A DNA stretch of 64,000 nt, taken from positions 1 through 64,000 of the forward strand of contig CAJCID010000266.1 in the NCBI GenBank assembly GCA_903970305.1, read 5' to 3'. The notes under the pieces were generated by a model. The model was not told where the DNA came from, did not search any database, and saw only the letters and a list, made by a program, of their open reading frames with translations. The position numbers were made by a program, and so were the translations under genes. Source of the stretch: Rhodospirillales bacterium. Its GTDB lineage: Bacteria > Pseudomonadota > Gammaproteobacteria > Burkholderiales > Burkholderiaceae_D. Positions 13,484 through 52,621 of the stretch are shown here, one piece after another (the first letter of the stretch is position 1; each line of letters opens with the position of its first letter).

Positions 13484-13812
13484 CGCATACCTTCCCAAAA
13501 AATAAGTCACAGACGTCCTGCGATAGGAACCCCATTCGAGGGTCGTATCGAACCCGCTCCCTACGGGAAGATGGGGCCCGGCTGTCCTGGTCTGCGCGCC
13601 AGGCAGCGGCGCGGGTGGCAGTCCTGCCCCGACCCCGGTGGAGCGATCGCCCAAGGGCTCTCACTGACCGACCGGGAATGAGCTGGTCCACTGGGGCACT
13701 CGGACCGGTCCCAAAGGCGATCCTAAGTCCGCGGCGCACACGACGCTCTTCCGGATTATAAGCGAGTCCGGGGCTTCGTCAGGCAACCCGAAGGAGGAGG
13801 GCGGCCCTCCTC
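13484..13812. other. Intergenic region between the M1 and M19 peptidase genes
   Basis: About 330 bp separate the M19 stop from the M1 start. The left part must hold the leftward M1 promoter and a GGGAAGG ribosome-binding site. The right end holds the terminator hairpin of the M19 gene. No gene with a convincing coding pattern is visible. Confidence 0.5.
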
Positions 13813-13814
13813 CT
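13792..13814 (-). terminator. Perfect hairpin overlapping the M19 gene stop
   Basis: AGGAGGAGGGC (13792-13802) and GCCCTCCTCCT (13804-13814) form an 11-bp perfect inverted repeat around one base. It overlaps the TAG stop of the leftward M19 gene and continues into its 3' flank. The tiny loop means the centre pairs must open, but the stem is very GC-rich. It is the likely end of the PLD-M19 transcript. Confidence 0.55.
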
Positions 13815-14961
13815 AGGCCGCCATCGAGGCGTCAAATACCCTGGCATAGTTGCCGCCGATGATCTGGCCGATCTCAGCGGAGGTGAAGCCGCGCGCGAGC
13901 AATTCCGAGACGAGCGCGGGCAGATCTTGATAGGAGCCGAACACCGATGGTCCGGTCAGACCGAGCATGTCCGTACCGAGGCCGACATGGTCGATTCCGA
14001 CGACGTCCGCGAGCGCCGCGATGCCCCCTGCCAAAGCCATCATGGTCGGAAAGCGCGACGCCGGAGGCCACACGCCGATGACCCCGCCGGTGCCGGCGAC
14101 GACACGCGCATGCTCGGGACTGATCAGACGCGAATAGGTCCTAGGGACGGCCGCCAGCGAGGTATGCGAGAGGACGAGCGGCTTGACGCTGACTTCCGCG
14201 GCCCGCTTGACCAGTTCGAGGGGGCCATGGGCCACGTCGACGACGACGCCGCGTTCGTTGCAGCGGCGCACGAGCGCCTCGCCAAATGGGGTCAGGCCGT
14301 CATGAACGAGAGGCACGGTCTGGATATCGCCGATCTCGCTGACCCGGTAGTGGGTCAGCTGCAGGTGACGCAGTCCGAAGGTCTCGTAGTATTCGTCGAG
14401 CCGGTCGATACGCCCTTCGAGGAAGTCCGCTCCCTCGCAGGCGAGGATGACCGCGGGCCCTGCCGATCGGGCCTTCTCGAGGGACGGGCGATCGACCACC
14501 TGGAGGAGCCGCTCCTGGGCGATGAGTTCAAGCGCCCTCGGGAAGGACCTTTGCGACCAGGCATAGAGTTCGCCCGCTCCAGGCTCCCGCACCGCGCTGA
14601 TGGTGCGATCCGCGTTCACGCGCGTGACGGGCGTGTCGCCTACAACGGCAAGACAAATGACGTTCATGCCCCCTTCGCGCATCGGCTCACGCACCGGCTC
14701 GAAAGGTCTCTCGAAATTGCCCGACCTTCCTGGAATGACCCGGCCGGCGTGGCTGTGCAGATCGATGGACAGGCCAGCCCGAAGGATCGAGCGCACGCGC
14801 TCGTCCAGGTTCGGGTCCTCCAAGGCTGAGATCTTCTCTGCCACACAGCCCGCCAAGGCAAAGGCCCCGGCCCCGAGGAGCAGGCGCCGGCGCAGCGTGG
14901 AGACGCGCGAGCCGGCGTTCCGGGCTTCGCGCGCCTTGCGATCGATCGTTTCTTGATCCAT
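13813..14961 (-). CDS. M19 (renal dipeptidase-type) lipoprotein
   Basis: A 382-residue amidohydrolase-fold dipeptidase. The N-terminus has RRRLLLGAGAFALAGC: twin or triple arginine plus a lipobox ending at Cys39, suggesting Tat-exported lipoprotein. SIDLHSHAG (His69, His71) is the first metal-ligand strand. CEGADFLEG supplies the bridging Glu region. VDVAHGP and LSHTSLAAVPRTYSRLISPE supply later histidines. IDHVGLGTDMLG is the C-terminal acidic strand (usual HVGIGSDFDG). M19 enzymes cleave dipeptides, including D-amino-acid dipeptides. It lies 4 bp downstream of the PLD-type lipoprotein, so both belong to one envelope operon. Confidence 0.87.
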   Translation of the reverse strand: MDQETIDRKAREARNAGSRVSTLRRRLLLGAGAFALAGCVAEKISALEDPNLDERVRSILRAGLSIDLHSHAGRVIPGRSGNFERPFEPVREPMREGGMNVICLAVVGDTPVTRVNADRTISAVREPGAGELYAWSQRSFPRALELIAQERLLQVVDRPSLEKARSAGPAVILACEGADFLEGRIDRLDEYYETFGLRHLQLTHYRVSEIGDIQTVPLVHDGLTPFGEALVRRCNERGVVVDVAHGPLELVKRAAEVSVKPLVLSHTSLAAVPRTYSRLISPEHARVVAGTGGVIGVWPPASRFPTMMALAGGIAALADVVGIDHVGLGTDMLGLTGPSVFGSYQDLPALVSELLARGFTSAEIGQIIGGNYARVFDASMAA

Positions 14962-41755: not shown

Positions 41756-42523
41756 CTATTTCAGGCTCGCGGCAAGAAACTGCTTCAGCCGGTCGCTTTG
41801 GGGTTGCGCGAGAACCGTGCGCGGAGCACCTTCCTCGAGCACGCGGCCGTCGTGCAGGAACAAGAGGTGATTGGAGACTTCGCGCGCAAAGCCCATCTCG
41901 TGCGTGACCACGATCATCGTGCGGCCCTCCTCGGCGAGCGCGCGCATGACCTGCAGCACCTCGCCCACGCGTTCGGGATCCAAGGCCGAGGTGGGTTCAT
42001 CGAAGAGCATCACCTCGGGCTCCATCGCGAGCGCCCGGGCGATCGCCACCCGCTGCTGCTGGCCACCTGAGAGGTGCGCAGGATAGCGATCCTCGACGCC
42101 GGCCAGACCGACCTTCTCGAGATAGAGCCGGCCCCGGGCGAGCGCATCGGCCCGTCCGAGCTTCAAGACCCTGATCGGGGCCTCGATGACGTTCTCGAGC
42201 GCTGTCATATGGGCCCACAAGTTGAAGTGCTGGAACACCATGGCGAGCTTCGCGCGCATGCGCTGCAGCTGACCCGAGTCCGCCGCATGCAGTGCGCCGT
42301 CGCGACCGGTCCTTAGCGAGATGGGCTCTCCGGCGACCTCGATCGCGCCTGCGTGCGGACGCTCGAGCATGTTGATACAACGCAAGAAGGTACTCTTGCC
42401 CGATCCGGATGATCCGATGATGCTGATGACATCACCCGCCTGGGCGGTCAGGGAGACGCCCTTTAACACCTCATTGGCGCCGAAGCGCTTGTGCAGATCG
42501 ACGACCTTCAGTTTCGTGGTCAT
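41756..42523 (-). CDS. hisP: Amino-acid ABC transporter ATPase (HisP type)
   Basis: A 255-residue ATPase. Walker A is GSSGSGKST, the Q-loop [13 protein letters not shown], signature [15 protein letters not shown], Walker [15 protein letters not shown], and the H-loop VVTHEMGF. The order and the insertion before the Q-loop are those of the polar amino-acid class (HisP/GlnQ/ArtP). It is last of four leftward genes with its binding protein and two permeases. Uptake of a basic or polar amino acid is predicted; His/Arg/Lys/Orn is likely from similarity. Confidence 0.93.
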
Positions 42524-42542
42524 GGCGCTCTCAAGGAGAAGG

Positions 42543-43256
42543 TCAGGTGCCGCGCACGCGCAGGTAGGCGAGCCAGCGACGCTCAGCCAAGCGGAACAGC
42601 GCGACCAGGCCGAGCGTGAGCAGAAGATAGATGGCGCCTGCCGTCAGGTAGGCCTCGAAGGGCAGATAGTAGGTTGAATAGACGCTGCCGGCCGCACCCG
42701 TGATGTCGATCAAGGACGGCACGACACTTGCGACCGATGTCGCCTGGAGCATCAGGATGACTTCATTGGAGTAGGCAGGCAGCGCGCGCCTAAGCGCCGA
42801 GGGCAGCAGGATACGCCGGTAGAGCATAGCTTCGCTCATGCCGACACTGCGCCCGCCCTCGATCTCGCCGTGCGGCGTGGTACGGATCGCTCCGGCTATG
42901 ATCTCGATCGTATAGGCGGTCGTGTTGATCACGAAGGCCAGCACCGTGCAAAAGAGCGGACCCTTGAACCAGGTCCAGGGCCAGATCGAATCCCACCGAG
43001 CCTCGACCCACGGCAGTTGACCCACGCCGTAATAGATCAGATAGACCTGGACCAAAAGCGGCGTGCCACGGATGGCGAAGGTGAAGAGCCACACGGGACC
43101 CCAGAGCCAGGGCTTATCTGAGCTGCGCAGGATCGAGAGCGGCAAGGCGAAGATCATCCCGAAGAAAAGCGACATCACCAGCAGTTCGAGCGTGGTCACG
43201 ATTCCGTGTGCATACAGAAGGAGCGTCTCGGGCGCGAAGATGACATCGAACTGCAT
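42543..43256 (-). CDS. hisM: Amino-acid ABC transporter permease (HisM type)
   Basis: A 237-residue inner-membrane permease with five helices and the EAA-type coupling loop [32 protein letters not shown]. The N-terminal half ([36 protein letters not shown]) is typical of the HisM side of the His/Arg family. It begins one base before the end of hisQ (TGATG overlap). Confidence 0.92.
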
Positions 43257-43942
43257 CAGAGCTCCACCTGACGCACTCCCAGGGAGAAGCGCTTTTCAAC
43301 GAGACGCAGCGCCACGAGCGAGAAGCTTGTGATCGCCAGATAGACGAGGGCAGCCAGAAGGAAATAGAGAAATGCCGAACGTGTCGCGCCGCTTGCCTGC
43401 TTCGCGCGATACATCATGTCGCCCAGGCCGATGATCGACACCAGCGCGGTCGCCTTGACGAGGACCAGCCAGTTGTTGGTCAGGCCCGGTAGCGCAAGCC
43501 GCACCATCTGCGGCAAGACGATGCGGCCCATGACCTGCAGGGGGGACATACCAAAGGCGATCCCGGCCTCGGCCTGGCCGCGCGGGATCGCCTGGATCGC
43601 GCCACGAAACGTCTCGGTCAGGTAGGCCCCATAGATGAACCCGATCGTGATCACTCCCGCGACGAACGGATTGACATCAATGTTGCCATCGTAGCCCAGT
43701 CGCTCGACGGCGAGATTGACGAGCGTCTGTCCGCCGTAGAAGACAAGCAGCATGAGGACCAGATCGGGAATGCCGCGGATGAGGGTGGTGTAGACGGTGG
43801 CGGCGAAGACCAGGACGCGCCTGCCCGAGAGTTTCGCCGCCGCCCCGGCCAAGCCCAGCACGACCGCGACGGCGAGCGAACCCACGGCAACTGCGACCGT
43901 GAGCCAGGCTCCTCCGAGGATACTAAGGAGGTAGCCGTCCAT
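43256..43942 (-). CDS. hisQ: Amino-acid ABC transporter permease (HisQ type)
   Basis: A 228-residue permease with about five helices. The coupling loop is GMSPLQVMGRIVLPQMVRLALPGLTNNWLVLVKATALVSIIG. The sequence LIRGIPDLVLMLLVFYGGQTLVN near the centre matches the HisQ/ArtQ group. It lies 59 bp downstream of the binding-protein gene and overlaps hisM by one base. Confidence 0.92.
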   Translation of the reverse strand: MDGYLLSILGGAWLTVAVAVGSLAVAVVLGLAGAAAKLSGRRVLVFAATVYTTLIRGIPDLVLMLLVFYGGQTLVNLAVERLGYDGNIDVNPFVAGVITIGFIYGAYLTETFRGAIQAIPRGQAEAGIAFGMSPLQVMGRIVLPQMVRLALPGLTNNWLVLVKATALVSIIGLGDMMYRAKQASGATRSAFLYFLLAALVYLAITSFSLVALRLVEKRFSLGVRQVEL

Positions 43943-44001
43943 CGGTTCCGCTGGCTGTGCCCCTTGGCCCCTCGGGCCCTACGATCGGCAGCCCAGGCAG
44001 G

Positions 44002-44805
44002 CTAACTGCCATAGACGTCGAAGCTGAAGTACTTGTCGTTAAGTTTCTTGTAGACCCCGTTGGCGCGGATCTCTTTCAAAGCCTCGTTGAGCTTGTCGCG
44101 CAGATCGGAATCGGTCTTGCGCACGGCGATGCCGGCGCCATAGCCGAAGAACTTGGGATCGCGCAGTTCCGGTCCGATGAAGACGAAACCCTGGCCGTCG
44201 GGAGACTTCAGGAATCCTTCGCCGGCCTCGACGGCATCGGCGACCGTTGCATCGAGCCGCCCAGACTTCAGGTCCAGGTAGACCTGTTCCTGAGTGTCGT
44301 AGCTGACCACGCTCGCTCCGGCAGGAGCCAACACGGCCAGCGCATACTTCTCCTGCACGGAGGCCTTCAGAACCCCCACGCGCTTACCTTTCAAGCTTTC
44401 AGGGGCGCTATAGGAACTACCCGCCTTGGCGACGATGCGGGTCGGCGTTTCATAGTACTTGTTGGTGAAATCCACCGCGCGGCGCCGGTCGTCAGTGATC
44501 GACATCGAGCTGATGATGGCGTCGAACTTGCGCGCATTCAGAGCCGGGATGATGCCGTCCCAGTTCTGCTCGACGAAGCTGCACTTGATCTTCATCTGCA
44601 CGCACAGCGCGTTGGCGATGTCGATGTCAAAGCCGGTGAGCTTGCCGTCCGCGGTCTTGTAGGTGAAGGGCTTGTAGGCAGCGTCGACTCCGACGCGCAG
44701 TTCAGTCCAGTCCTTCGCTGTTGCGAGACCCGGCAGAACCAGCGTCGCAACGAGGGCAAAGAGCGCCATGGCAGACCGCGCCTGGCGTGGAAAATACGGT
44801 TTCAT
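44002..44805 (-). CDS. hisJ: Periplasmic amino-acid-binding protein (HisJ/ArgT type)
   Basis: A 267-residue binding protein with a signal peptide (MALFALVATLVLPGLATAKDW). The type II SBP fold is shown by LRVGVDAAYKPFTYKTADGKLTGFDIDIANALC, the ligand-contact KRVGVLKASVQEKY, VVSYDTQEQVYLDLKSGRLDATVAD, and FGYGAGIAVRKTDSDLRDKLNEAL. These follow the lysine/arginine/ornithine and histidine-binding proteins. The ATG at 44805 is chosen for the signal. It is first in the hisJQMP-like operon behind a clear promoter. Confidence 0.92.
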   Translation of the reverse strand: MKPYFPRQARSAMALFALVATLVLPGLATAKDWTELRVGVDAAYKPFTYKTADGKLTGFDIDIANALCVQMKIKCSFVEQNWDGIIPALNARKFDAIISSMSITDDRRRAVDFTNKYYETPTRIVAKAGSSYSAPESLKGKRVGVLKASVQEKYALAVLAPAGASVVSYDTQEQVYLDLKSGRLDATVADAVEAGEGFLKSPDGQGFVFIGPELRDPKFFGYGAGIAVRKTDSDLRDKLNEALKEIRANGVYKKLNDKYFSFDVYGS

Positions 44806-44836
44806 GGGGAACTCGCTACTCGGTACAATCCTTGGC

Positions 44837-44865
44837 ATGTTACGCACCGTTCGGGCTCGAGGCAA
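44837..44865 (-). promoter_or_regulatory. Sigma-70-like promoter of hisJQMP
   Basis: Read leftward: TTGCCT (44865-44860), 17 bp, TAACAT (44842-44837). The -10 box lies 31 bp upstream of the hisJ ATG. The divergent membrane-protein gene starts 70 bp away on the other strand. Confidence 0.6.
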
Positions 44866-44934
44866 TTTTTTTTGCGGCGCCGCGGCACGCGCGCACGGCT
44901 CTTGCCGCGCACCGTTTGCCTGCGCGAGCCGCCA

Positions 44935-45792
44935 ATGAGCCCCGCGGTGGCACTCCCGCCAACAGCGCCGGATCCGGGTGCAACTCCCCGATTGCCTGAT
45001 CGGGCGACGCTCGTCGCGGTCTCGGCACTCGCTTATTTGATTGCTGTGGGATTGCACGAACATCTCGGGCACGCAACGGCCTGCGCGCTGCTTGGCAGCC
45101 GTCCCACAGAGCTCGGCGCATTCTATGTGAACTGCGACGATACGCGCTTGTCCGAGACACGCATCCGGCTCGTCGCGCTCGCCGGTCCCCTCATGAGTCT
45201 AGTGACCGGATTCGCCTGCCTTGCGCTCGCCCGGGTGATGCCGGCGCGGGCGCGTACCGCGTATTACTTCTTCTGGCTTCTCGGCAGCCTGGGTCTCATG
45301 ACGGCCGCAGGCTACGCACTCTTCTCGGGCGTCTCGGGAATTGGTGACTTCGGGACCGGCCACGACGGGGCCTTCTACGCCATCGACCCCGAATGGGTTG
45401 TTCGGGTCGTGCTCGCCCTGACGGGTGGCGTCGCCTATTTCTGGGTCGTCGGGTTTTGCGCGCGTGAGATCGCGCCTCACGCGGCGGGCACGGGAGCGCT
45501 ACGCATCGGCTGCGCCCGGCGCACGGTCCTCATCTCCTACTTCACCGGAGCTAGCGTGTCGCTTTTGATCGGACTGCTCAACCCCTATGGGATCCTGATC
45601 GTCGCCACTTCGGCACTCGCCTCCTCGATGGGAGGCACCTCGGGCCTCATCTGGATGATGAAGCGCCTCGATTCGAAGGACGTGGTACCAGGACCGGGTC
45701 TCTACTTTTCGCGCAGCTGGGTGTGGATCGCAATCGCCCTCATCGGCTCACTCGCCTATGCGGCGATTTTCGGCCCGACACTCTGGCTCTAA
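44935..45792 (+). CDS. Polytopic membrane protein with an HExxH-like motif
   Basis: A 285-residue protein with about seven hydrophobic segments. The first one holds VGLHEHLGHATACALLG, an HExxH placed inside a membrane helix as in M50-type site-2 proteases. Later segments are VALAGPLMSLVTGFACLAL, YYFFWLLGSLGLMTAAGYALF, VVRVVLALTGGVAYFWVVGF, ISYFTGASVSLLIGLLNPYGILIVATSAL and WIAIALIGSLAYAAIF. The second M50 motif (LDG/NPDG) is not obvious, so catalytic activity is uncertain. The ATG at 44935 fits the N-terminus; the open frame upstream is antisense to the transporter operon. Its TAA stop lies inside a tRNA-fMet-like remnant, so the gene end coincides with an island boundary. Confidence 0.75.
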   Translation: MSPAVALPPTAPDPGATPRLPDRATLVAVSALAYLIAVGLHEHLGHATACALLGSRPTELGAFYVNCDDTRLSETRIRLVALAGPLMSLVTGFACLALARVMPARARTAYYFFWLLGSLGLMTAAGYALFSGVSGIGDFGTGHDGAFYAIDPEWVVRVVLALTGGVAYFWVVGFCAREIAPHAAGTGALRIGCARRTVLISYFTGASVSLLIGLLNPYGILIVATSALASSMGGTSGLIWMMKRLDSKDVVPGPGLYFSRSWVWIAIALIGSLAYAAIFGPTLWL

Positions 45793-45829
45793 CCCGAAGG
45801 GCACAGGTTCAATCCTGTCCCCGCAACCA
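45784..45829 (+). pseudogene. Initiator tRNA-fMet 3' remnant (repeat copy R1)
   Basis: The sequence from GGCTCTAACCCGAAGG through the T-arm (ACAGG-TTCAAT-CCTGT) to CCCCGCAACCA matches the anticodon stem to CCA end of bacterial initiator tRNA. This includes the A72 that gives the unpaired C1-A72 end typical of tRNA-fMet. The 5' half is missing, the anticodon loop lacks bases, and the T-loop is one base short. So this is a remnant, consistent with a site-specific integration junction. A terminator-like hairpin follows. Confidence 0.7.
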
Positions 45830-45837
45830 AATATTTC

Positions 45838-45869
45838 AACGGCTCGCTTGCTCACGCAATCGGGCCGTT
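45838..45869 (+). terminator. Hairpin after the R1 tRNA-fMet remnant
   Basis: AACGGC (45838-45843) pairs with GCCGTT (45864-45869), followed by TTGGTTTT. The same kind of hairpin follows copies R2 and R3, as expected for a tRNA terminator carried along with each duplicated 3' end. Confidence 0.6.
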
Positions 45870-46216
45870 TTGGTTTTGACTTTCGCTAAGTTTGAATGCT
45901 CGCTTCCGACCCCCAACTGAGACACTCGGGCCAAGAAAAGCGTGCGTTCAGCGATGCGTTGAGCTAGGAGGTGCAGATGGCAGCTTGAGAGCCATTCCTG
46001 CAAAGCGTCAATCGAAGTACGCACTTGATCGCTTTACCTGGCACTTCCAGAAATGCCAAGACCTTCGCGAAGAGGGCCTTGGTGTCCTACTCTGTTGCTT
46101 CCCAATCTATTCGGCAAACACCCACTGGGCGAGGTGCTGATTCTCCGCGCGAACGGGTATCTGCCTAATTCCAGTGTGTAAGTTACACCGCCCGTCATCC
46201 AGACGCAAGCACGGGA
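45870..46216. other. Island left flank without a clear gene
   Basis: About 350 bp of lower-GC DNA between the R1 hairpin and the tRNA-like gene. It includes the first copy of a 55-bp direct repeat (46101-46155). Read leftward the repeat encodes RAENQHLAQWVFAE followed by a stop, apparently a degraded coding end. No intact gene is visible. Confidence 0.5.
46101..46155. repeat. 55-bp direct repeat, left copy
   Basis: It matches 48897-48951 at 49 of 55 positions (core TCGGCAAAC, CCCACTGGGC, CCGCGCGAACG). Both copies encode LAQW(V/E)FAE on the minus strand, so they look like ends of the same ancestral gene duplicated at both sides of the island. Confidence 0.8.
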
Positions 46217-46289
46217 TGGAGACGTCCGGAGTCGAACCGGCGACGCACGGAGAATCAGTCCGCCGCTCTCCCAACTGATCTACGCCTCC
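46217..46289 (-). tRNA. tRNA-like gene, candidate tRNA-Ile (GAU)
   Basis: Read leftward, a 73-base cloverleaf can be drawn. The acceptor GGAGGCG pairs with CGTCTCC (one G-U). The D-arm is GATC...GAGC with one A-G mismatch at 11-24. The anticodon stem is GCGGA/TCCGT with loop CTGATTC (anticodon GAU, Ile). The variable loop is GCGTC and the T-arm centres on TTCGACT. CCA is not encoded. The D-stem mismatch and the unusual acceptor suggest a mobile-element-borne or decaying tRNA rather than the housekeeping copy. Anticodon reading assumes this alignment. Confidence 0.6.
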
Positions 46290-46947
46290 ATCTGATGTCG
46301 GGTATAAAAAGTGTTTCCGGTGATTCTCGCGAAAGGAGACCGACGACACCAATCCACCGTGCGTGCGGCGAGAGACAGATACCGTAGACCGGAAATAGAT
46401 TCAGCGGAATCTGACGTGCGGCCCCACTGAACGTCCACGTACGCAGGACAGCGAAACGGGGCGTCCGAGTCGTTCTCGCCAGGCCGTGTTTTTGGCCGAT
46501 GCAAAAAGAGCCAATTTTGGCGATCGCGACAACAGGAAACGCTCGCAATCATTGCGCCTTGCTGTGAGAACTCGAGTTCCTTCCCTCGCGTTTCTACACT
46601 TCGGACCGTCACGTATCCGGTCCAGGAGCGTCGACGAGATACTTCCCACATGGAGAGAAAATGGCCTCTGCACCTTCCCCATCTCTTTGATTGGCAAAAT
46701 CGACTATGGTGGCACTTGATTCAACGTCGAGGATTGCAATTCGACCAGTAGTACTCTTGACTGCGAGCGGCGTCCCATGTCGGCTGAAGTTCACGCAGGA
46801 AGGATGTGACACCGGATGAGAACTCCATAGCCGTTTCCGAACTGAAGTTTCGACCATGACGACATTCCTACCGACACAAGCAAGACGGTCACCTAGGGGA
46901 GACACGGCAATCGAGTAAGAACTCGGCAATTTCAAATGACTTCTCAT
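46290..46947 (-). pseudogene. WD40/beta-propeller protein relic with two frameshifts
   Basis: The first frame (46947 down to 46609) encodes propeller strands: YSIAVSPLGDRLACVG, CVNFSRHGTPLAVKSTTG, IAILDVESSAT and EAIFSPCGKYLVD. It stops at 46609. The next frame continues in register with GYVTVRSVETRGKELEFS (to about 46450). The original frame then resumes with VYGICLSPHARWIGVVG. This pattern needs one single-base change near 46615-46630 and a compensating one near 46430-46450. The ATG overlaps the VapC stop by 4 bp. GC is lower than in flanking chromosome. Downstream it runs into the tRNA-like gene. Confidence 0.65.
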
Positions 46948-47342
46948 CGCCAGTCTTCGATTTGAAGCGCGGTTACCCTTTCGAACTCGTTAAGATTCGA
47001 TGTGACAACGACGAGCCCCCGCGCCACGGCAGTACCTGCAATCAGGACGTCGTAGGCGCCGATGGGTTGCCCTCTTGACTTGAGGGAGGCTCGAATTGCT
47101 GCTGCCGCTCGTGCGTCTGCCTCATCGAATGGCAGCGTGGCTACTGCCGAGAAGAACGCTTCAAGTACAGGTGCGAGTTTTTGAGCACGCTCAACGTTGA
47201 GGAAGAGGCTATAGTCAATCTCCATCCGAGTTAGCGCGGACACGGCAATGAGGTTCGGCGCCGTCGAATTGACTCGAGCGAGAGTGCTCGATTGCCCTCG
47301 GACGAAATCCGAAACTGCGCAAGTATCGAGGAGGTACTTCAC
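46944..47342 (-). CDS. vapC: VapC-type PIN-domain ribonuclease toxin
   Basis: A 132-residue PIN-domain protein. The acidic metal-binding residues are visible: Asp6 (YLLDTCAVSDF), Glu41 (LTRMEIDYS) and Asp97 (IGAYDVLIAGTA), then VVTSNLNEFERV near the C-terminus, the usual TxN-x3-F element. VapC toxins cleave specific RNAs such as initiator tRNA. The ATG overlaps the antitoxin stop by 4 bp, the typical vapBC coupling. Cleavage target here unknown. Confidence 0.9.
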   Translation of the reverse strand: MKYLLDTCAVSDFVRGQSSTLARVNSTAPNLIAVSALTRMEIDYSLFLNVERAQKLAPVLEAFFSAVATLPFDEADARAAAAIRASLKSRGQPIGAYDVLIAGTAVARGLVVVTSNLNEFERVTALQIEDWR

Positions 47343-47575
47343 GTCAAGGGATCATCTGACGGCGGATTGAGCCCATGACGCGTCGATTCGAACGGGGGTA
47401 TCTCGGGCAGTCCTTCGAAGGACAAAAGCTCGGGCGGCCACTGGGGCGTTCCGTGCCTTCCCAACCATTCACTCAGCGCCTGGCGAATCAGCGCGTTCCG
47501 ACTCTCTCCGGATTGCTCCACGGCACGATTCAACTGCCTGCCTGTTTCATCGTCGAGATAGATATTGAAGTTCAT
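47339..47575 (-). CDS. vapB: Ribbon-helix-helix antitoxin of the VapC module
   Basis: A 78-residue protein. The N-terminal MNFNIYLDDETGRQLNRAVEQSGESRNALIRQALSEWL is a ribbon-helix-helix DNA-binding domain. The C-terminal tail (WPPELLSFEGLPEIPPFES) would wrap the toxin. AGGAG lies 8 nt upstream of the ATG. A perfect palindrome lies 13-30 bp upstream, the likely autorepression site. Confidence 0.88.
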   Translation of the reverse strand: MNFNIYLDDETGRQLNRAVEQSGESRNALIRQALSEWLGRHGTPQWPPELLSFEGLPEIPPFESTRHGLNPPSDDPLT

Positions 47576-47587
47576 TGCGCGCTCCTC

Positions 47588-47605
47588 ATAACATGTTTAC
47601 ATGTT
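47588..47605. promoter_or_regulatory. Palindromic operator upstream of vapBC
   Basis: TAACATG-TTTA-CATGTTA is a perfect inverted repeat with 7-bp arms. It starts 13 bp upstream of the antitoxin ATG. Ribbon-helix-helix antitoxins bind such sites as dimers of dimers; autorepression is inferred. Confidence 0.7.
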
Positions 47606-47688
47606 AGATAAATATCCTTTTTGAATCAGGGGGTACGAGGCGAAAATGCGCAAGCGCGACGGCAAGTGCGATGCGACTGGTCAATGAA

Positions 47689-47730
47689 GGCGGACCCATC
47701 CATAAAGGTGGAATCCTGTCCCCGCAACCA
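47689..47730 (+). repeat. tRNA-fMet 3'-end repeat, copy R2
   Basis: It ends AATCCTGTCCCCGCAACCA, identical over 19 bases to the 3' end of R1. Its upstream 20 bp (GGACCCATCCATAAAGGTGG) resemble those of R3 rather than a tRNA. It marks the boundary between the two toxin-antitoxin modules. Confidence 0.75.
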
Positions 47731-47738
47731 TACAGATC

Positions 47739-47762
47739 AACGGCCTACCTCGGTAGGCCGTT
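47739..47762 (+). terminator. Strong hairpin after repeat R2
   Basis: AACGGCCTACC (47739-47749) and GGTAGGCCGTT (47752-47762) form a long perfect stem followed by T-rich sequence. It fits a Rho-independent terminator carried with the tRNA-fMet 3' end. Confidence 0.75.
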
Positions 47763-47976
47763 TGTCTTATGAGACCGTTGGTCTTCCTTCTTGCCACCCG
47801 AACGCAGCATCGCAAATCGTCCGCAATGCCGGAATCCGCACGTCGAACCGCGCTTCTGAAAGCGGTTTGACTCAAACTTGCTCGATTCTGGCGAGAACCT
47901 TTGCCTTTGCAACCAATCTTGACCCCTCGCTTCAAGCGGCAAATTACTGCTTCAGTAACTCGCCAGGGAACATCTA

Positions 47977-48390
47977 TCATGCCTCTTTCTCTTGGCCTTC
48001 CTTCTGCTTCGTAGAGTTGCGTTCCAAGAAGTCGGAATAGCCGCTCTCATCGAGCGCGCCCGAAGCCAAGTCGAGCACGGCTTGCGCCGCTTCCTGCTCA
48101 CTCGCACCAAAGCGGTAGCCGTTGAGCTCTAGGAACAGGACACCAACAAGGAAACCCACGCGCTTGTTTCCGTCGATGAAAGGGTGGTTCTGTACGATTC
48201 CGCCTGTATAGGCTGCAGCCAACGAGATGACACTTGGATTGTCTCCGTATACGAGCTGCTGTCGGGGGCGAGACAACGCCGACTCCAACAAGCCGATGTC
48301 GCGAATCCCGCCCGCACCACCGTGTGCGACCAATGACTTGCGGTGGAGACCGAGCGCATCGCGCTCATCAATCCACGTGGGCTCCTTCAC
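47977..48390 (-). CDS. doc: Doc/Fic-family toxin (death-on-curing)
   Basis: A 137-residue Fic-fold protein. The catalytic loop HPFIDGNKRVG (69-79) matches the HxFx(D/N)GNKR motif of Doc kinases, which phosphorylate EF-Tu. The N-terminal HRKSLVAHGGAGGIRDIGLLESALSRPRQQ is typical of Doc. The ATG overlaps the stop of the antitoxin gene by 4 bp. The partner is an AbrB-type rather than a Phd-type antitoxin. Confidence 0.92.
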   Translation of the reverse strand: MKEPTWIDERDALGLHRKSLVAHGGAGGIRDIGLLESALSRPRQQLVYGDNPSVISLAAAYTGGIVQNHPFIDGNKRVGFLVGVLFLELNGYRFGASEQEAAQAVLDLASGALDESGYSDFLERNSTKQKEGQEKEA

Positions 48391-48614
48391 TTCGCAAGTA
48401 CGTGCAGCGTATTCCGGTATCGCCGCATGATGTCGTCCGCCTTCGACATCTTCTTCTCAAAATCCGGATCGTACGGAGTCAACTGAAAGGACCCGTCCGG
48501 GTTCTCCAATAGGAAAAGAGGTGCCCCATCGCCTGTTTGAAGTCGATTGATGACTTCGCGCGGCAGAACCACGCCAAGCGAATTGCCAAACTTTCGAACC
48601 TTGAGCTCAATCAT
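48387..48614 (-). CDS. AbrB/MazE-type antitoxin of the Doc module
   Basis: A 75-residue protein beginning MIELKVRKFGNSLGVVLPREVINRL, the swapped-hairpin AbrB/SpoVT fold. The C-terminal acidic tail (YDPDFEKKMSKADDIMRRYRN) should bind the toxin. The ATG at 48614 has GGAGG 6 nt upstream; an in-frame ATG at 48626 and the open frame to 48770 are less likely. It is directly preceded by a perfect palindrome. Confidence 0.88.
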   Translation of the reverse strand: MIELKVRKFGNSLGVVLPREVINRLQTGDGAPLFLLENPDGSFQLTPYDPDFEKKMSKADDIMRRYRNTLHVLAK

Positions 48615-48629
48615 GGTGGCCTCCATCGA

Positions 48630-48649
48630 GTTATTACGATTGTAATAAC
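48630..48649. promoter_or_regulatory. Palindromic operator of the doc module
   Basis: GTTATTAC-GATT-GTAATAAC is a perfect inverted repeat with 8-bp arms, 15 bp upstream of the antitoxin ATG. It is the expected autorepression site of the AbrB-type antitoxin/Doc complex. Confidence 0.75.
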
Positions 48650-48732
48650 ATCGCAATGGGGTGTCAAGACACTGACACTGCCTCTGATTCCGCGGGCGAA
48701 AAGTTTGCATCCGAAACGATCGGTCATTTGAG

Positions 48733-48773
48733 CCGGACCCTTCTGTGAAGGTGGAATTCTGTCCCCGCAACCA
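48733..48773 (+). repeat. tRNA-fMet 3'-end repeat, copy R3
   Basis: It ends AATTCTGTCCCCGCAACCA, one base different from R1 and R2. It shares the upstream GGACCC...AAGGTGGAAT with R2. It is followed by GGCTCGCT...AATCGGGCCGTTTTGGT, closely resembling the sequence after R1. It is the right boundary of the array. Confidence 0.75.
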
Positions 48774-49022
48774 AATTCCAATGGCTCGCTGACTTACTCA
48801 ATCGGGCCGTTTTGGTCTTCTGCGGTCATTTTATGGAACGGCGTTTAGGCGCGTGCGAGACAAATCAAAAGCCCACTCCAGGTGGACTTTGAACCACCCA
48901 ATCTCTTCGGCAAACTCCCACTGGGCTAGGAGCTGATACCCCGCGCGAACGCGTTAGCGCCTGATTGATTTCGAGATACCGTCCCAGCGGACTGAAGTCA
49001 ATCGATAGGGTAAAGTCAGGCT
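48774..49022. other. Island right flank, about 250 bp
   Basis: It holds the R3 hairpin region and the second 55-bp direct repeat (48897-48951). Read leftward, a frame through the repeat gives GYQLLAQWEFAEEIGWFKVHL and continues to a stop near 48835. It looks like the end of a coding sequence without a start. No intact gene. Confidence 0.5.
48897..48951. repeat. 55-bp direct repeat, right copy
   Basis: It matches 46101-46155 at 49 of 55 positions, in the same orientation, so the two copies bracket both toxin-antitoxin modules, the tRNA-like gene and the WD40 relic. Confidence 0.8.
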
Positions 49023-50231
49023 CTAAACCTGGCTTGACGGTGGGGCGGCGAGGCAGCTCGAGGCCTGCCAGCCATAGAGCCACTCCAGAGCATCGTAGTA
49101 GCGCTCCGAACTGCGCCCCTTCCAGAGCTCGTTACGGACCAGACGCTCGATGCCGTCTGCGTGATAGATTCGACCCATCTCGCGCGAAGAGAGCACGACG
49201 CGCGCCGTGCGCGCGATGCGCGAGCGTTCGTAGAGCCGAAAGGCGGATTCGAAGTCGAACTCGCACCGGGCCACGGCGGCGCCAAGCGTGACCGCGTCCT
49301 CGAGCGCCATGCAGGCACCCTGGGCGAGGTACTGCAGCATCGGATGTGCGGCATCACCCAAGATGGTCGCGCGACCCCGTCCCCAGGACAGGACCGGATC
49401 GCGATCGGCCGTACTCCAGCGCCGCCAGGTCTTCGGGACATCCAAAAGGCGCCTGGGTTGCTCGAGTATCCCCTCGAAGTAAGACAGGACTTCCTCTTTG
49501 CTGCCGTCCTTGACCCCCCAGGTCTCGTTCTCGCGGCTGTGGAATGTGACGACGATGTTATATTGCGAGCCGCCGCGCAGCGGATAGTGCACCAGATGGC
49601 AATTCGGTCCCCCCCAGACCGCAGGTGCATTCCAGCGCAGATCATCGGGCATCTCTTCGGCAGGAACGACTGCACGGTAGACCACATGTCCGGACACGCG
49701 CGCGGCATCGCCGATCAAGTGCTGGCGTACGACTGACTTCACCCCATCGCAGCCCACGAGCGCTGCCGCACGATAATGGCGGCCAGAACTATCGCTGACC
49801 GAGACGCCGCCTGCCTCGAGCTCGATCGCCTCGACCTTCACCGAGGTCGCGAACTCGATCAGATTGCTTTGTCCGACGGCGTCCAAGATCGACTGGTGGA
49901 TGTCGGCGCGGTGGATGACAGCATAGGGATTGCCAAAGCGCTCGCGAAACGCCTCGCCCACTGGAAAGGAAGCCACCTCTGATCCGTCCACGGCATCCAT
50001 CATCACCAGACGCTCGGTGAAGACGGCGCGCGAGCGCGCTTGGGCACCCACGCCTAAGGCATCCATGGCCGCGAATGCGTTCGGCCCGAGCTGGATCCCC
50101 GCGCCGATCTCGCCGATCGATGCACTTTGCTCGAGCAAGAGGCTTGGCACCTTCAGGCGGGCGAGTGCGAGCGCCGTCGCGAGGCCCCCGATTCCTGCCC
50201 CGACAATCAGAATCCTGTCTTCCTCGGCCAT
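49023..50231 (-). CDS. 3-hydroxybenzoate 6-hydroxylase (FAD monooxygenase)
   Basis: A 402-residue class A flavoprotein hydroxylase. The FAD motif is GAGIGGLATALAL (11-23), the internal DG motif LVGCDGVKSVVR, and the second FAD motif ATILGDAAHPMLQYLAQGACMALEDA. The overall wording follows 3-hydroxybenzoate 6-monooxygenases, close to salicylate hydroxylases. It would convert 3-hydroxybenzoate to gentisate with NADH and O2. GGAGAG lies before the ATG at 50231. It is divergent from a MarR gene and near the gentisate operon, which supports this substrate over salicylate. The last 30 residues are low-complexity. Confidence 0.85.
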   Translation of the reverse strand: MAEEDRILIVGAGIGGLATALALARLKVPSLLLEQSASIGEIGAGIQLGPNAFAAMDALGVGAQARSRAVFTERLVMMDAVDGSEVASFPVGEAFRERFGNPYAVIHRADIHQSILDAVGQSNLIEFATSVKVEAIELEAGGVSVSDSSGRHYRAAALVGCDGVKSVVRQHLIGDAARVSGHVVYRAVVPAEEMPDDLRWNAPAVWGGPNCHLVHYPLRGGSQYNIVVTFHSRENETWGVKDGSKEEVLSYFEGILEQPRRLLDVPKTWRRWSTADRDPVLSWGRGRATILGDAAHPMLQYLAQGACMALEDAVTLGAAVARCEFDFESAFRLYERSRIARTARVVLSSREMGRIYHADGIERLVRNELWKGRSSERYYDALEWLYGWQASSCLAAPPSSQV

Positions 50232-50366
50232 CTGTCTCTCCGATCCCAAGGGGTGAATCCGAAGCAGCAATTTGTCGTAAGATCGAAACTGAGATTCCAA
50301 GACGTGCCGCTGGCACAACGCGTTTCGCCGACGGCTGGCCTACCGTTATCCGACGCTAACCGACCG

Positions 50367-50846
50367 ATGCCCAAGAACTCCGACGAACCCTTCATCTCCG
50401 ATCTGCCGGGGCACCTGATCCGCCGTCTGCAGCAGATCGCGGTGGCTGCCTTCTACGAGCAGACCGCGTTGTTCGAGATTACGCCCGTCCAGTTCGCCGC
50501 ATTGCAGACGATCAGGGAGAATCCCTCGATCGACCAGCGCTCGCTTTCCGGTGCCATCGCGCTCGACGCGTCCACCACGGGCGGGGTCATTGATCGCCTC
50601 GAGAAACGGGGCTTGATCAAGCGCACCCAGGCCGTCCACGATCGCCGTGTCAAGCAACTCCGTGTCACGCCCTCGGGCACGAAGCTGCTGCGCCAGCTGC
50701 GCCCACATGTCATGCGCACCCAGGTCCGCATCCTCGCCCCGCTCAGATCCCGGGAATCGCGCGAGTTCCTGCGCTTACTCGAGATCCTCGTCGACAAGAA
50801 CAATCTCTTGAGCCGCGCCCCCCATGCCGAAGACGAGGAGGGCTAA
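50367..50846 (+). CDS. MarR family transcriptional regulator
   Basis: A 159-residue winged-helix regulator. The helix-turn-helix is in NPSIDQRSLSGAIALDASTTGGVIDRLEKRGLIKR, followed by the wing HDRRVKQLRVTPSG. MarR regulators beside aromatic-ring genes usually repress and respond to the aromatic substrate. It diverges from the hydroxylase gene, and its stop overlaps the fumarylpyruvate hydrolase stop in a convergent layout. The 135-bp divergent gap probably holds its operator. Confidence 0.88.
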   Translation: MPKNSDEPFISDLPGHLIRRLQQIAVAAFYEQTALFEITPVQFAALQTIRENPSIDQRSLSGAIALDASTTGGVIDRLEKRGLIKRTQAVHDRRVKQLRVTPSGTKLLRQLRPHVMRTQVRILAPLRSRESREFLRLLEILVDKNNLLSRAPHAEDEEG

Positions 50847-51544
50847 ACCATCCTGACCGAGAGTTCGCCCAAACCCTCGATCGAGCCGTGCATCAGATCC
50901 CCAGGAACGACCGGGCCGACCCCGGCGGGTGTACCGGTGAAGATCAGATCGCCCGGCTCCAGAGCAAAGTAGGTCGACAGATTCGCAATCACTTCGTCGA
51001 TCGACCAGATCAGCTGGCCAAGCTCGCTCTTTTGCTGGGTCACCCCGTTGACAGCGAGTTCAATGGCGCGCGAGCTGAGGTCTTCCTTGCCGGTGGCCCG
51101 GTGGATGGGCGCAATCGGCGCAGACCAGTCGAAGGCCTTGCCGATCTCCCAGGGCCGGCCCTTCTCACGCATGGCGATCTGCAGATCGCGCCGCGTCATG
51201 TCCAGGCCCACCGCGTAGCCGAAGACATGTGAACGCGCGTCTTCAGTGCGAATGTCGCGCCCTCCAGCTCCAATCGCAACCACGAGTTCGATCTCGTAAT
51301 GCAGGTTCTTCGTCAGGCTCGGATAGGGCATGCTCCCGGTGGTGCCGGGCGCCACACTCCAGACTGCATCAGCCGGTTTGCAGAAAAAAAACGGCGGCTC
51401 GCGATCGGGATCGAAACCCATCTCGCGCGCGTGTTCGGCATAGTTGCGCCCCACGCAGTAGACGCGGCGCACGTGAAAGAGCTCGCTGTGTCCGACGACA
51501 GGGACCGTGACGGGCTTTAGGGGAGTAAGACACTTCTCGTTCAT
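50843..51544 (-). CDS. Fumarylpyruvate hydrolase (FAH family)
   Basis: A 233-residue FAH-fold hydrolase. YCVGRNYAEHAREMG, PPFFFCKPADAV, LHYEIELVVAIG (metal-binding Glu region), GYAVGLDMTRRDLQ and FTGTPAGVGPVVPGD match the fumarylpyruvate/maleylpyruvate hydrolase group. It cleaves fumarylpyruvate to fumarate and pyruvate, the last step of the gentisate pathway. The ATG at 51544 follows GGAGAGAGAG. It lies 15 bp downstream of the gentisate dioxygenase, so one operon. Confidence 0.88.
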   Translation of the reverse strand: MNEKCLTPLKPVTVPVVGHSELFHVRRVYCVGRNYAEHAREMGFDPDREPPFFFCKPADAVWSVAPGTTGSMPYPSLTKNLHYEIELVVAIGAGGRDIRTEDARSHVFGYAVGLDMTRRDLQIAMREKGRPWEIGKAFDWSAPIAPIHRATGKEDLSSRAIELAVNGVTQQKSELGQLIWSIDEVIANLSTYFALEPGDLIFTGTPAGVGPVVPGDLMHGSIEGLGELSVRMV

Positions 51545-51559
51545 GGGCTCTCTCTCCAA

Positions 51560-52621
51560 TTACTCGAGGGCATCGCGCCAGAGCCCCAGTGCCTTTTGCA
51601 CCGGGCGATCCGAGAAACTAAAGAGAACCGTTTCGGCCGCTGCCCGAAGCCGAAAGCGCTGCCACGACGGTACGACGAAATGATCCTTCTCGCCAAACTC
51701 CAGGACACGCTTTGCGCCCTCATCGCCGATCTCGACCGAGCCGCGACCCTCGATGACACTAAAGACCGCTGCATCGGTGCACCGATAGGCGGCGCTCGCA
51801 AAGTCCTTTGGGAGCAGCTGAAGATAGGTGGCCATGGTGGGCATCGCCGATCCACCGGTCGTGGGATTGATGTACTGCATCTTGAATCCGTGCACCGGGT
51901 GCGGTAGGGTGCCGCGCGCCAAAGCGAACACGGCGGCGCGCGAGCGGGCGTAGGGATAGACAAAGAGCGGCGCTGACGTGGGCGCCCTCTCGTCGGCCAC
52001 CGGGACCATGTTTGCGCCATAACGCAGCAACGCATCGCCCGGCGGCCTGGTGGGCTCGGGCGGACGATCTGTCGGATGGGCCTGGTTCTCTGCAAAGCCC
52101 AGATCCAGCATCCGTAAGAGGGGGATGTCCAGCCCGTCGAGCCAGATCACAGGCTCCTTGCCGGGATTGCCATGATCGTGCCAGGTCCAGGAAGGTGTGA
52201 TGACAAAGTCGCCCGGAGTCATCGGATGCCGTTCGCCATCGACTGCGGTATAGGCGCCCAGGCCCTCGAGGACCAGGCGCAGCGCGCTTTGGGTATGTCG
52301 GTGGCTGGGCGCGATCTCGCCCGGAAGAATGAGTTGCAGGCCGGCGTACAAAGTGCCGGTGATCGAGGACTGTCCGGGCAAGCCCGGATTCTCCAGAATG
52401 AGCACGCGCCGCACCGCTTCGGCAGCCCCGATGATCTCTCCGGCGCGCATCACTTCCGGGCGCACGTCCTGCCAGCGCCACAGAGCCGCTTGGGCCGCCG
52501 TCGCGGGCCGCGGCGGCACGAGCGCGTGCAGCACTTCCCAAAGCGGAGCGAGACCAAGCGGCGCGATCGACTCATAAAACGCTTGCCGGGAAGCACTGGC
52601 ATGCGGGCCAAGCGGCATCAT
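51560..52621 (-). CDS. Gentisate 1,2-dioxygenase
   Basis: A 353-residue bicupin dioxygenase. The N-terminal cupin has APSHRHTQSALRLVLEG (His107, His109) and TPSWTWHDHGN (His148), the iron-binding residues. A second cupin region follows (LLPKDFASAAYRCTDAAVFSVIEGRGSVEIG). It opens the gentisate ring to maleylpyruvate with Fe(II) and O2. GGAG lies before the ATG at 52621; the next codon is also ATG. It is first in an operon with fumarylpyruvate hydrolase. Confidence 0.9.
   Translation of the reverse strand: MMPLGPHASASRQAFYESIAPLGLAPLWEVLHALVPPRPATAAQAALWRWQDVRPEVMRAGEIIGAAEAVRRVLILENPGLPGQSSITGTLYAGLQLILPGEIAPSHRHTQSALRLVLEGLGAYTAVDGERHPMTPGDFVITPSWTWHDHGNPGKEPVIWLDGLDIPLLRMLDLGFAENQAHPTDRPPEPTRPPGDALLRYGANMVPVADERAPTSAPLFVYPYARSRAAVFALARGTLPHPVHGFKMQYINPTTGGSAMPTMATYLQLLPKDFASAAYRCTDAAVFSVIEGRGSVEIGDEGAKRVLEFGEKDHFVVPSWQRFRLRAAAETVLFSFSDRPVQKALGLWRDALE

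Follow-up and report, generated by a model that had tools for sequence, protein, structure and literature searches.

Large serine recombinases (LSRs) are prized integration tools, and most reports of their natural sites place them in protein genes or in intergenic DNA. Integrons gather small cassettes into an array at a single site, toxin–antitoxin (TA) cassettes are common in them, and their attC sites carry the core words RYYYAAC / GTTRRRY. Where integrative elements occupy tRNA genes, the accreted integrase-less remnants at such sites are termed CIMEs. According to the available portions of two reports, integrative elements in tRNA genes restore the tRNA and leave a 3′ fragment as attR (PMC9897764, PMC12884075). 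In SCC, as set out in the available part of one account, serine recombinases act on a single site in the chromosome, the 3′ end of a gene, which is kept intact, the att sites are direct repeats, and some members have no recombinase genes (PMC6243372). A search of mainly open-access literature gave, among the matches listed, no LSR at tRNA-fMet and no TA cassettes between tRNA-fMet ends; the main text of PMC10083194 has no occurrence of 'tRNA'.

The window analysed here is a 64,000-nucleotide stretch of a 4.33-Mb assembly (G000) from a soil bacterium and contains a block in which partial copies of the tRNA-fMet 3′ end, R1 to R3, alternate with TA operons. On balance, we slightly favour the reading that this block was once part of an SCC-like attachment-site array lacking an integrase and has since been displaced, with its repeats derived from LSR elements at tRNA-fMet. 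The features of the block are as follows:

44891–49050, no strand: stretch in the window's genome, replaced by 52 bp in the same-genus genome G001; holds a membrane-like ORF and the whole block
45782–45829, +: R1, a degenerate tRNA-fMet 3′ part that runs from the anticodon stem to CCA; attL-like end (98-column match to G035)
45830–45877, +: terminator-like hairpin after R1, common to C244, G001 and G035 (sequence comparison, fold)
46944–47342, −: VapC, PIN toxin whose sequence places it in the tRNA(fMet)-specific group (profile and PDB-sequence matches)
47339–47575, −: VapB, ribbon-helix-helix (RHH) antitoxin (profile match)
47590–47605, no strand: palindromic operator-like site upstream of vapB (sequence inspection)
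47696–47730, +: R2, tRNA-fMet 3′ end preceded by a left arm of non-tRNA sequence (repeat comparison)
47731–47767, +: hairpin after R2 (inverted repeat I2; fold)
47977–48390, −: Doc (Fic/DOC family) toxin (profile matches)
48387–48614, −: doc_partner, MazE/AbrB-type antitoxin (profile matches)
48630–48649, no strand: operator-like palindrome upstream of doc_partner (sequence inspection)
48739–48773, +: R3, tRNA-fMet 3′ end preceded by a left arm of non-tRNA sequence (one mismatch, last 16 nt)
48774–48819, +: degenerate R1-type hairpin after R3 (D4 repeat, 84%; fold)

The initial annotation had described VapBC and Doc/AbrB-type antitoxin modules running leftward, each behind its own palindrome, in a region of lowered GC, and all of this was borne out. 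Specifically, PIN, RHH, Fic and MazE-type profiles were found (Doc scores 55.8 bits with the DOC_P1 model, above the cut-off of 38.65), both operons have their upstream palindromes, and GC is 0.51–0.59 across 46000–49000 compared with 0.60–0.66 across 42000–45500 and 49000–52000. The tRNA-like gene placed between R1 and R2 is indeed present and is tRNA-Ile-like (42 bits, Rfam); the WD40 relic placed there does give a match (E 1.9e-6), but a weak one, below the curated cut-off. A Pfam scan of the membrane-protein-like ORF at 44935–45792 gave no match, and this ORF is present in only one of 80 genomes, its own. A 70-nt repeat, D2, was also observed and led to no further insight. Judged from their sequences, the TA operons of the window probably work as ordinary type II modules.

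The motif CCTGTCCCCGCAACCA occurs exactly at 45814–45829 and 47715–47730 of the window, and a third copy with one mismatch lies at 48758–48773, all on the + strand. With up to three mismatches there are four matches in the window, compared with a shuffle mean of 0.76, and at least four were reached in 3 of 100 shuffles; such loose matches are partly expected by chance, and the case for the repeats therefore rests on the near-exact copies. The suggested genome search was informative: the 14-mer TGTCCCCGCAACCA occurs six times in the assembly, with three copies in the window block, one in the real tRNA-fMet on contig C29 and two on contig C244, and no additional copies were found in the assembly at up to three mismatches. 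That the repeats arose by chance, or belong to a dispersed family without relation to attachment, might be argued from the 0.76 window matches expected randomly at three mismatches, but a reversed control gave zero occurrences against the six in the genome, and in other genomes the repeats bracket cargo after genuine tRNA-fMet genes. We consider this explanation barely conceivable, and chance repeats were rejected on the shuffle, reversed-pattern and genome-wide mismatch searches.

The three copies differ in extent. R1 aligns with the tRNA-fMet and terminator of G035, a bog MAG, at 91.8% over 98 columns, starting from tRNA base 28; by inspection it has single-base losses in the anticodon loop and T loop, and its terminator is of the G035 type, unlike that of its own genome's tRNA-fMet. 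In R2 and R3, similarity to the tRNA begins only at about the T-loop, and the 62-nt stretches upstream of the two are 79% alike. Each copy had been said to be followed by a hairpin; the copies are confirmed and the hairpins are clear after R1 and R2, but fold analysis shows the one after R3 to be disrupted.

Related genomes show what these repeats may be. Genuine tRNA-fMet genes are followed by downstream repeat copies in G035, G275, G175 and G014, as expected of attR-type sites. G035 has an intact tRNA-fMet, the same terminator as R1, a Doc/antitoxin pair and then a repeat, beyond which lie DUF5615/DUF433, Phd/VapC and a nucleotidyltransferase. In two complete, Collimonas-like genomes, repeats follow tRNA-fMet at spacings of 8.2, 2.4 and 1.0 kb (G275) and 0.87 kb (G175); the smallest LSR-free unit in these arrays is 871 bp with a single gene, and the cargo scanned with Pfam comprises DUF4272, SnoaL, a metallo-beta-lactamase fold and a flavodoxin-like protein, with no TA genes among those scanned. 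On C244, two repeat copies frame another TA cassette; the toxin of the C244a cassette is visible only in the G001 homologue. Apart from R1, there are five distinct bog repeats (R2, R3, C244a, C244b and G035), and each comes directly after a leftward TA antitoxin, with 89–124 nt from antitoxin start to repeat arm in four of them and, by our own count, about 128 nt in C244a. In the relatives, then, the repeats behave as sites of elements inserting at tRNA-fMet, and the proposal that they are attachment sites is well supported.

An LSR query matched 9 of 195 genomes of the family at E ≤ 1e-40, and in seven of the nine, including the query's own and one in which the LSR is broken by stops (G028), the match overlaps the intact 3′ end of tRNA-fMet by 41 nt; in the remaining two (G159 and G022) no tRNA-fMet was found beside the LSR. 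In these related Burkholderiaceae, the LSR gene immediately follows the tRNA and is oriented toward it, terminating within the antisense of the tRNA 3′ end; a single piece of DNA therefore serves as both attachment site and integrase-gene 3′ end. Three of six viral records retrieved with the repeat carry PF07508, and in all three the 3′ end of the LSR overlies a copy of the tRNA-fMet 3′ end. When named phages and plasmids were searched for the LSR, all relatives obtained were below 60% identity. Relics of the LSR 3′ end follow 7 of the 11 non-bog repeats and array tRNAs tested, each exceeding all 100 shuffles, and were found at all six tested in G275 and G175. At bog repeats, the relic score was reached by shuffles 2 times in 100 for R1 and 3 in 100 for R3, and by far more of the 100 at the other six bog sites; with significance this low against shuffles, relics at the window repeats were dropped as proof. 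A first test of the left arms was partly circular, its training sites having been found by a pattern that fixes six arm bases; redone on free bases, the arms of C244, G001 and G035 fit (fractions 7e-4 to 7e-3) but those of R2 and R3 do not (about 0.5). Of 17 contig loci found with the pattern, only one has a tRNA in the fetched stretch and two have LSR similarity, although islands above 8 kb would hide both. We regard an LSR origin as moderately supported for the C244, G001 and G035 copies; for R2 and R3 it is suggested only by analogy.

The repeats might instead have been left by tyrosine-integrase islands at tRNA-fMet, with the block being accreted, CIME-like remnants that lack an integrase. 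Tyrosine integrases are usual at tRNA genes. L042 has, about 0.5 kb away from a repeat, an ORF fragment that looks tyrosine-recombinase-like on inspection of its translation, the available text of PMC11476347 gives tRNA-fMet as a known site in Sinorhizobium, and a PF07508 search found no protein in G000 (a MAG, 91.6% complete) or G035 and one distant protein in G001. However, wherever an integrase could be tied to the repeat family in the relatives, which were searched for LSR/PF07508, it was an LSR overlapping the tRNA, and we judge the tyrosine route improbable.

Under the preferred reading, a displaced LSR-derived array, elements would enter tRNA-fMet at its T-arm/3′ end. Each would restore the tRNA with a 3′ end and terminator of its own, and the previous 3′ end, shifted downstream, would remain as a partial, attR-like copy. 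Serial insertion would give the order tRNA 3′ end and terminator, cargo, 3′ end copy and terminator, cargo; elements that lost most of their recombinase would persist as short cassettes, which TA operons probably guarded against loss. The block would then comprise R1, the vapBC cassette, R2, the doc cassette, R3 and the start of a third cassette, and we infer that the same LSR type made its repeats.

The position of the block bears on one step of this scheme. The same two flanking genes enclose about 4.2 kb in the window and 52 bp in G001, and this 52-bp empty site has no tRNA-fMet 3′ end. Because of this, and because the intact tRNA-fMet of the window's genome is on C29, the block of the window does not lie at tRNA-fMet. 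Array growth at the initiator tRNA, as first envisaged, thus describes the relatives, whose integrase-less arrays directly follow tRNA-fMet, but not the block, which would be an array piece that has since been displaced from it. The initial annotation had also named two observations that would together count against its proposal: one, a site for the block without tRNA-fMet sequence, is what G001 shows, while the other, absence of the repeats from other TA loci, is contradicted by C244, G001 and G035.

Two TA stretches are more alike between genomes than the chromosomal genes compared. The Phd/VapC stretch of G000 and G035 is 93.7% identical over 764 nt, compared with 68.8% for tRNA-fMet locus genes, and the antitoxin–repeat stretch of C244 is 98.4% identical to that of G001 over 364 nt, compared with 75–76% for the FAD/ABC flank. 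A single-gene cassette is common to G175 and G188; their similarity (95% over 921 nt) runs through the repeat and terminator, and no match was obtained past that point. Such cassettes may have moved in trans; neither excised circles nor activity were observed. Equally, an LSR origin could hold with cassettes that never moved by themselves, full elements having inserted serially and been eroded by deletion, with sharing by homologous recombination at the repeats; the graded lengths of LSR relics beside repeats and the broken LSR in G028 fit this, although shared units ending at the repeat/terminator (G175/G188 and G000/G001) suit site-specific exchange equally well. We give erosion an even chance.

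The initial annotation had drawn attention to a possible functional tie between an initiator-tRNA-cutting toxin and tRNA-fMet ends. Among solved structures, the nearest in sequence to the window VapC is a tRNA(fMet)-specific VapC (6ifc, E 1.2e-20), and the best seven PDB sequences for the window toxin all bear that name; against the curated tRNA(fMet)-specific model this toxin scores 100.4 bits, below the cut-off of 140. The sibling cassettes argue against such a link: they hold Doc and DUF433/DUF5615, a Phd/VapC that scores weaker (41–42 bits, same cut-off), another VapC that matches the general model only and, in Collimonas, non-toxin genes without TA among those scanned. Given this varied cargo, we rejected a general link; the association looks coincidental, and a functional one is highly improbable.

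If our reading is true, there is an LSR clade whose fixed target is the initiator tRNA and whose attachment site lies within the end of its own gene, which would make a widely present landing site; array building would have a natural case without tyrosine integrases; and tRNA-fMet fragments and orphan TA pairs would be one phenomenon.

Compared with known systems, the window genes themselves are ordinary type II TA modules, VapBC and Doc/doc_partner matching in sequence families and operon layout; only their setting is unusual. The likeness to integrons, which had been suggested, lies in small cassettes arrayed at a single site and in the TA cargo, but none of the attC core words occurs within 120 nt of R1–R3, so integron attC sites there were rejected, and the integrase candidate in the relatives is an LSR. 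We hold it tentatively, and rather doubt, that the system is a beta-proteobacterial serine-recombinase counterpart of the integron, with tRNA-fMet as fixed entry and LSRs acting in trans to capture and exchange integrase-less cassettes; in that still doubtful case each cassette would be one gene or TA pair, its site the tRNA 3′ end and terminator, with the LSR stop codon within the site. Integrative elements of tRNA genes, including tandem and accreted islands, share tRNA restoration and the 3′-fragment attR with the relatives' elements, but the available text on them names a tyrosine integrase or no enzyme (PMC9897764, PMC12884075), in contrast to the LSR here. With SCC and pseudo-SCC, the shared features are a serine recombinase, an intact gene 3′ end, direct-repeat att sites and recombinase-less members. 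The best NCBIfam match of the Glaciimonas LSR is CcrB (E 6e-35), but its 120.9 bits against a cut-off of 900 do not reach the equivalog range. In addition, the target here is tRNA-fMet (seven of nine LSR genomes) instead of the orfX/rlmH of SCC, a single recombinase overlaps that target, and the cassettes range down to 0.9–1.9 kb.

Re-examination of the window sequence bore out the three tRNA-fMet 3′-end repeats (R1–R3), the hairpins that follow them, and the two leftward toxin-antitoxin (TA) operons described in the initial annotation. The repeat is specific: a whole-assembly search found six copies of the 14-mer TGTCCCCGCAACCA and none of the reversed control. One copy belongs to the real tRNA-fMet on contig C29, and contig C244 holds two (C244a and C244b), 1,865 bp apart with a Phd/VapC pair between them and an AbrB-like antitoxin ahead of them at the contig end. 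Immediately past the second C244 repeat, the translation reads as a helicase-like fragment (locus L008, 2306-2618).

The window block does not sit at the initiator tRNA gene. Genome G001, of the same genus, has the FAD monooxygenase and ABC-transporter genes side by side in the window's gene order; homology ends at 44890 and restarts at 49051, with 52 bp in G001 between those points, and no tRNA-fMet 3′ end is present at ≤4 mismatches in the 700 bp searched around the site. The block and a membrane-protein-like ORF are therefore additional DNA at a location outside any tRNA gene, either gained in the source genome or lost from G001. The features concerned are:

44935-45792, membrane-protein-like ORF, stop codon inside tRNA-derived R1
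46214-46290, minus strand, tRNA-Ile(GAT)-like gene within the block
46609-46947, minus strand, weak beta-propeller fragment

The ORF lacks a Pfam match and is present in one of 80 genomes searched, its own. A 70-nt repeat (83%) follows both R1 (46101-46170) and R3 (48897-48966), with no match in loci L007, L008, L039 or L040. In G001, 51 nt (L039, 4615-4665) are 94% like the window's Doc-operon operator region (48621-48671) and are perhaps a cassette relic.

A degenerate pattern of the repeat, searched against genome_contigs, 392 family genomes and viral contigs, matched 17 loci, nine genomes and six contigs, respectively. Downstream of an intact tRNA-fMet, the bog MAG G035 has an R1-type terminator, then a Doc pair and a repeat; additional TA or nucleotidyltransferase genes come next, and all of these genes run leftward. 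The complete genomes G275 and G175 share one genus code with G233; in both, repeats with their own terminators lie downstream of the ate-aat-nudix-tRNA-fMet locus. Within this Collimonas-like genus the repeat is patchy (4/15 genomes at ≤3 mismatches), and the tRNA-fMet pair was detected in 14/15. An Azospirillum contig (L058) carries a GTTCGGTAAAGGCCAAATCC-type repeat at 633-660 and, just past it, an LSR-like stretch (36%; 1079-2212), so the site family may reach the Alphaproteobacteria.

In Glaciimonas soli, a gene for a 530-aa PF07508-type large serine recombinase (LSR) immediately follows tRNA-fMet and is oriented toward it, with a repeat ~9.8 kb away; Herbaspirillum G058 has the same layout, with repeats ~28 kb from the tRNA. 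Among 195 family genomes, nine matched an LSR query at E≤1e-40; in seven of them, the match and an intact tRNA-fMet share 41 nt. In Glaciimonas soli (L132: LSR 12373-13965, tRNA 13922-13998), the antisense strand of the tRNA-fMet 3′ end codes for the LSR C-terminus. The two exceptions among the nine are G159, with a partial LSR beside a degenerate tRNA 3′ end, and G022, the weakest match. PF07508 occurs in three of six viral records, and in each of the three the LSR end lies on a copy of the tRNA 3′ end.

DNA past repeats or array tRNAs was scored for LSR C-terminal coding against 100 shuffles each. Outside the bog sites (repeats in the source genome, G001 and G035), 7/11 sites still encode LSR C-terminal sequence, scoring 57-137, above all shuffles (maxima ≤41); the first G058 repeat, G233, the second Glaciimonas soli repeat and G159 were negative. 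None of 26 control tRNA-fMet sites, one being the G035 array tRNA, exceeded 30, and four further control tRNAs behaved likewise. At the eight bog sites, R1 scored 34, R3 32 and the others 21-28, scores reached by 2 of 100 shuffles for R1, 3 of 100 for R3 and far more for the others. The non-tRNA arms of the C244, G001 and G035 repeats fit those of other sites very well, but the pattern fixed six arm bases; on free bases only, the fit is 7e-4 to 7e-3 per site, the C244 and G001 arms being homologous and hence non-independent. The R2 and R3 arms showed no fit on free bases and resemble the C244 arm by eye only; R2 and R3 are otherwise linked to C244 by a shared genome, by the tRNA part, by terminator family and by their TA context.

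R1 comprises the tRNA-fMet 3′ part from base 28 onward plus a terminator resembling that of the G035 tRNA-fMet (91.8% over 98 columns, versus 92.3% over 52 columns, tRNA part only, for the tRNA-fMet of its own genome). Because R1 is tRNA-derived with a terminator and the left arms of R2 and R3 are non-tRNA, R1 resembles an attL end, on the tRNA side of an array, and R2 and R3 resemble attR ends, on the far side.

The source genome and G035 share 93.7% identity across 764 nt of the Phd/VapC stretch, compared with 68.8% across 2,283 columns of the tRNA-fMet locus genes. For the antitoxin-repeat stretch of C244, identity to G001 is 98.4% over 364 nt and ends at the terminator, against 75-76% for the FAD and ABC flanks. 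A DUF4272 cassette common to G175 and G188 (95% over 921 nt) ends 54 nt beyond the repeat. These comparisons show that small units bordered at or near repeats have been exchanged; they are silent on the enzyme responsible.

A leftward TA antitoxin gene directly precedes all five distinct bog repeats (R1 excluded; the partner VapC of C244a is visible only in its G001 homologue), while the scanned Collimonas cargo contained no TA genes; TA content is thus a mark of the bog group, not of the repeat site family. With TA cargo confined in this way, the special relation between VapC and tRNA-fMet suggested initially is unnecessary.

Among NCBIfam models the LSR is nearest to CcrB, far under its cut-off. 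We read the window block as an integrase-less, SCC-like array of attachment sites, probably made by an LSR and displaced from tRNA-fMet.
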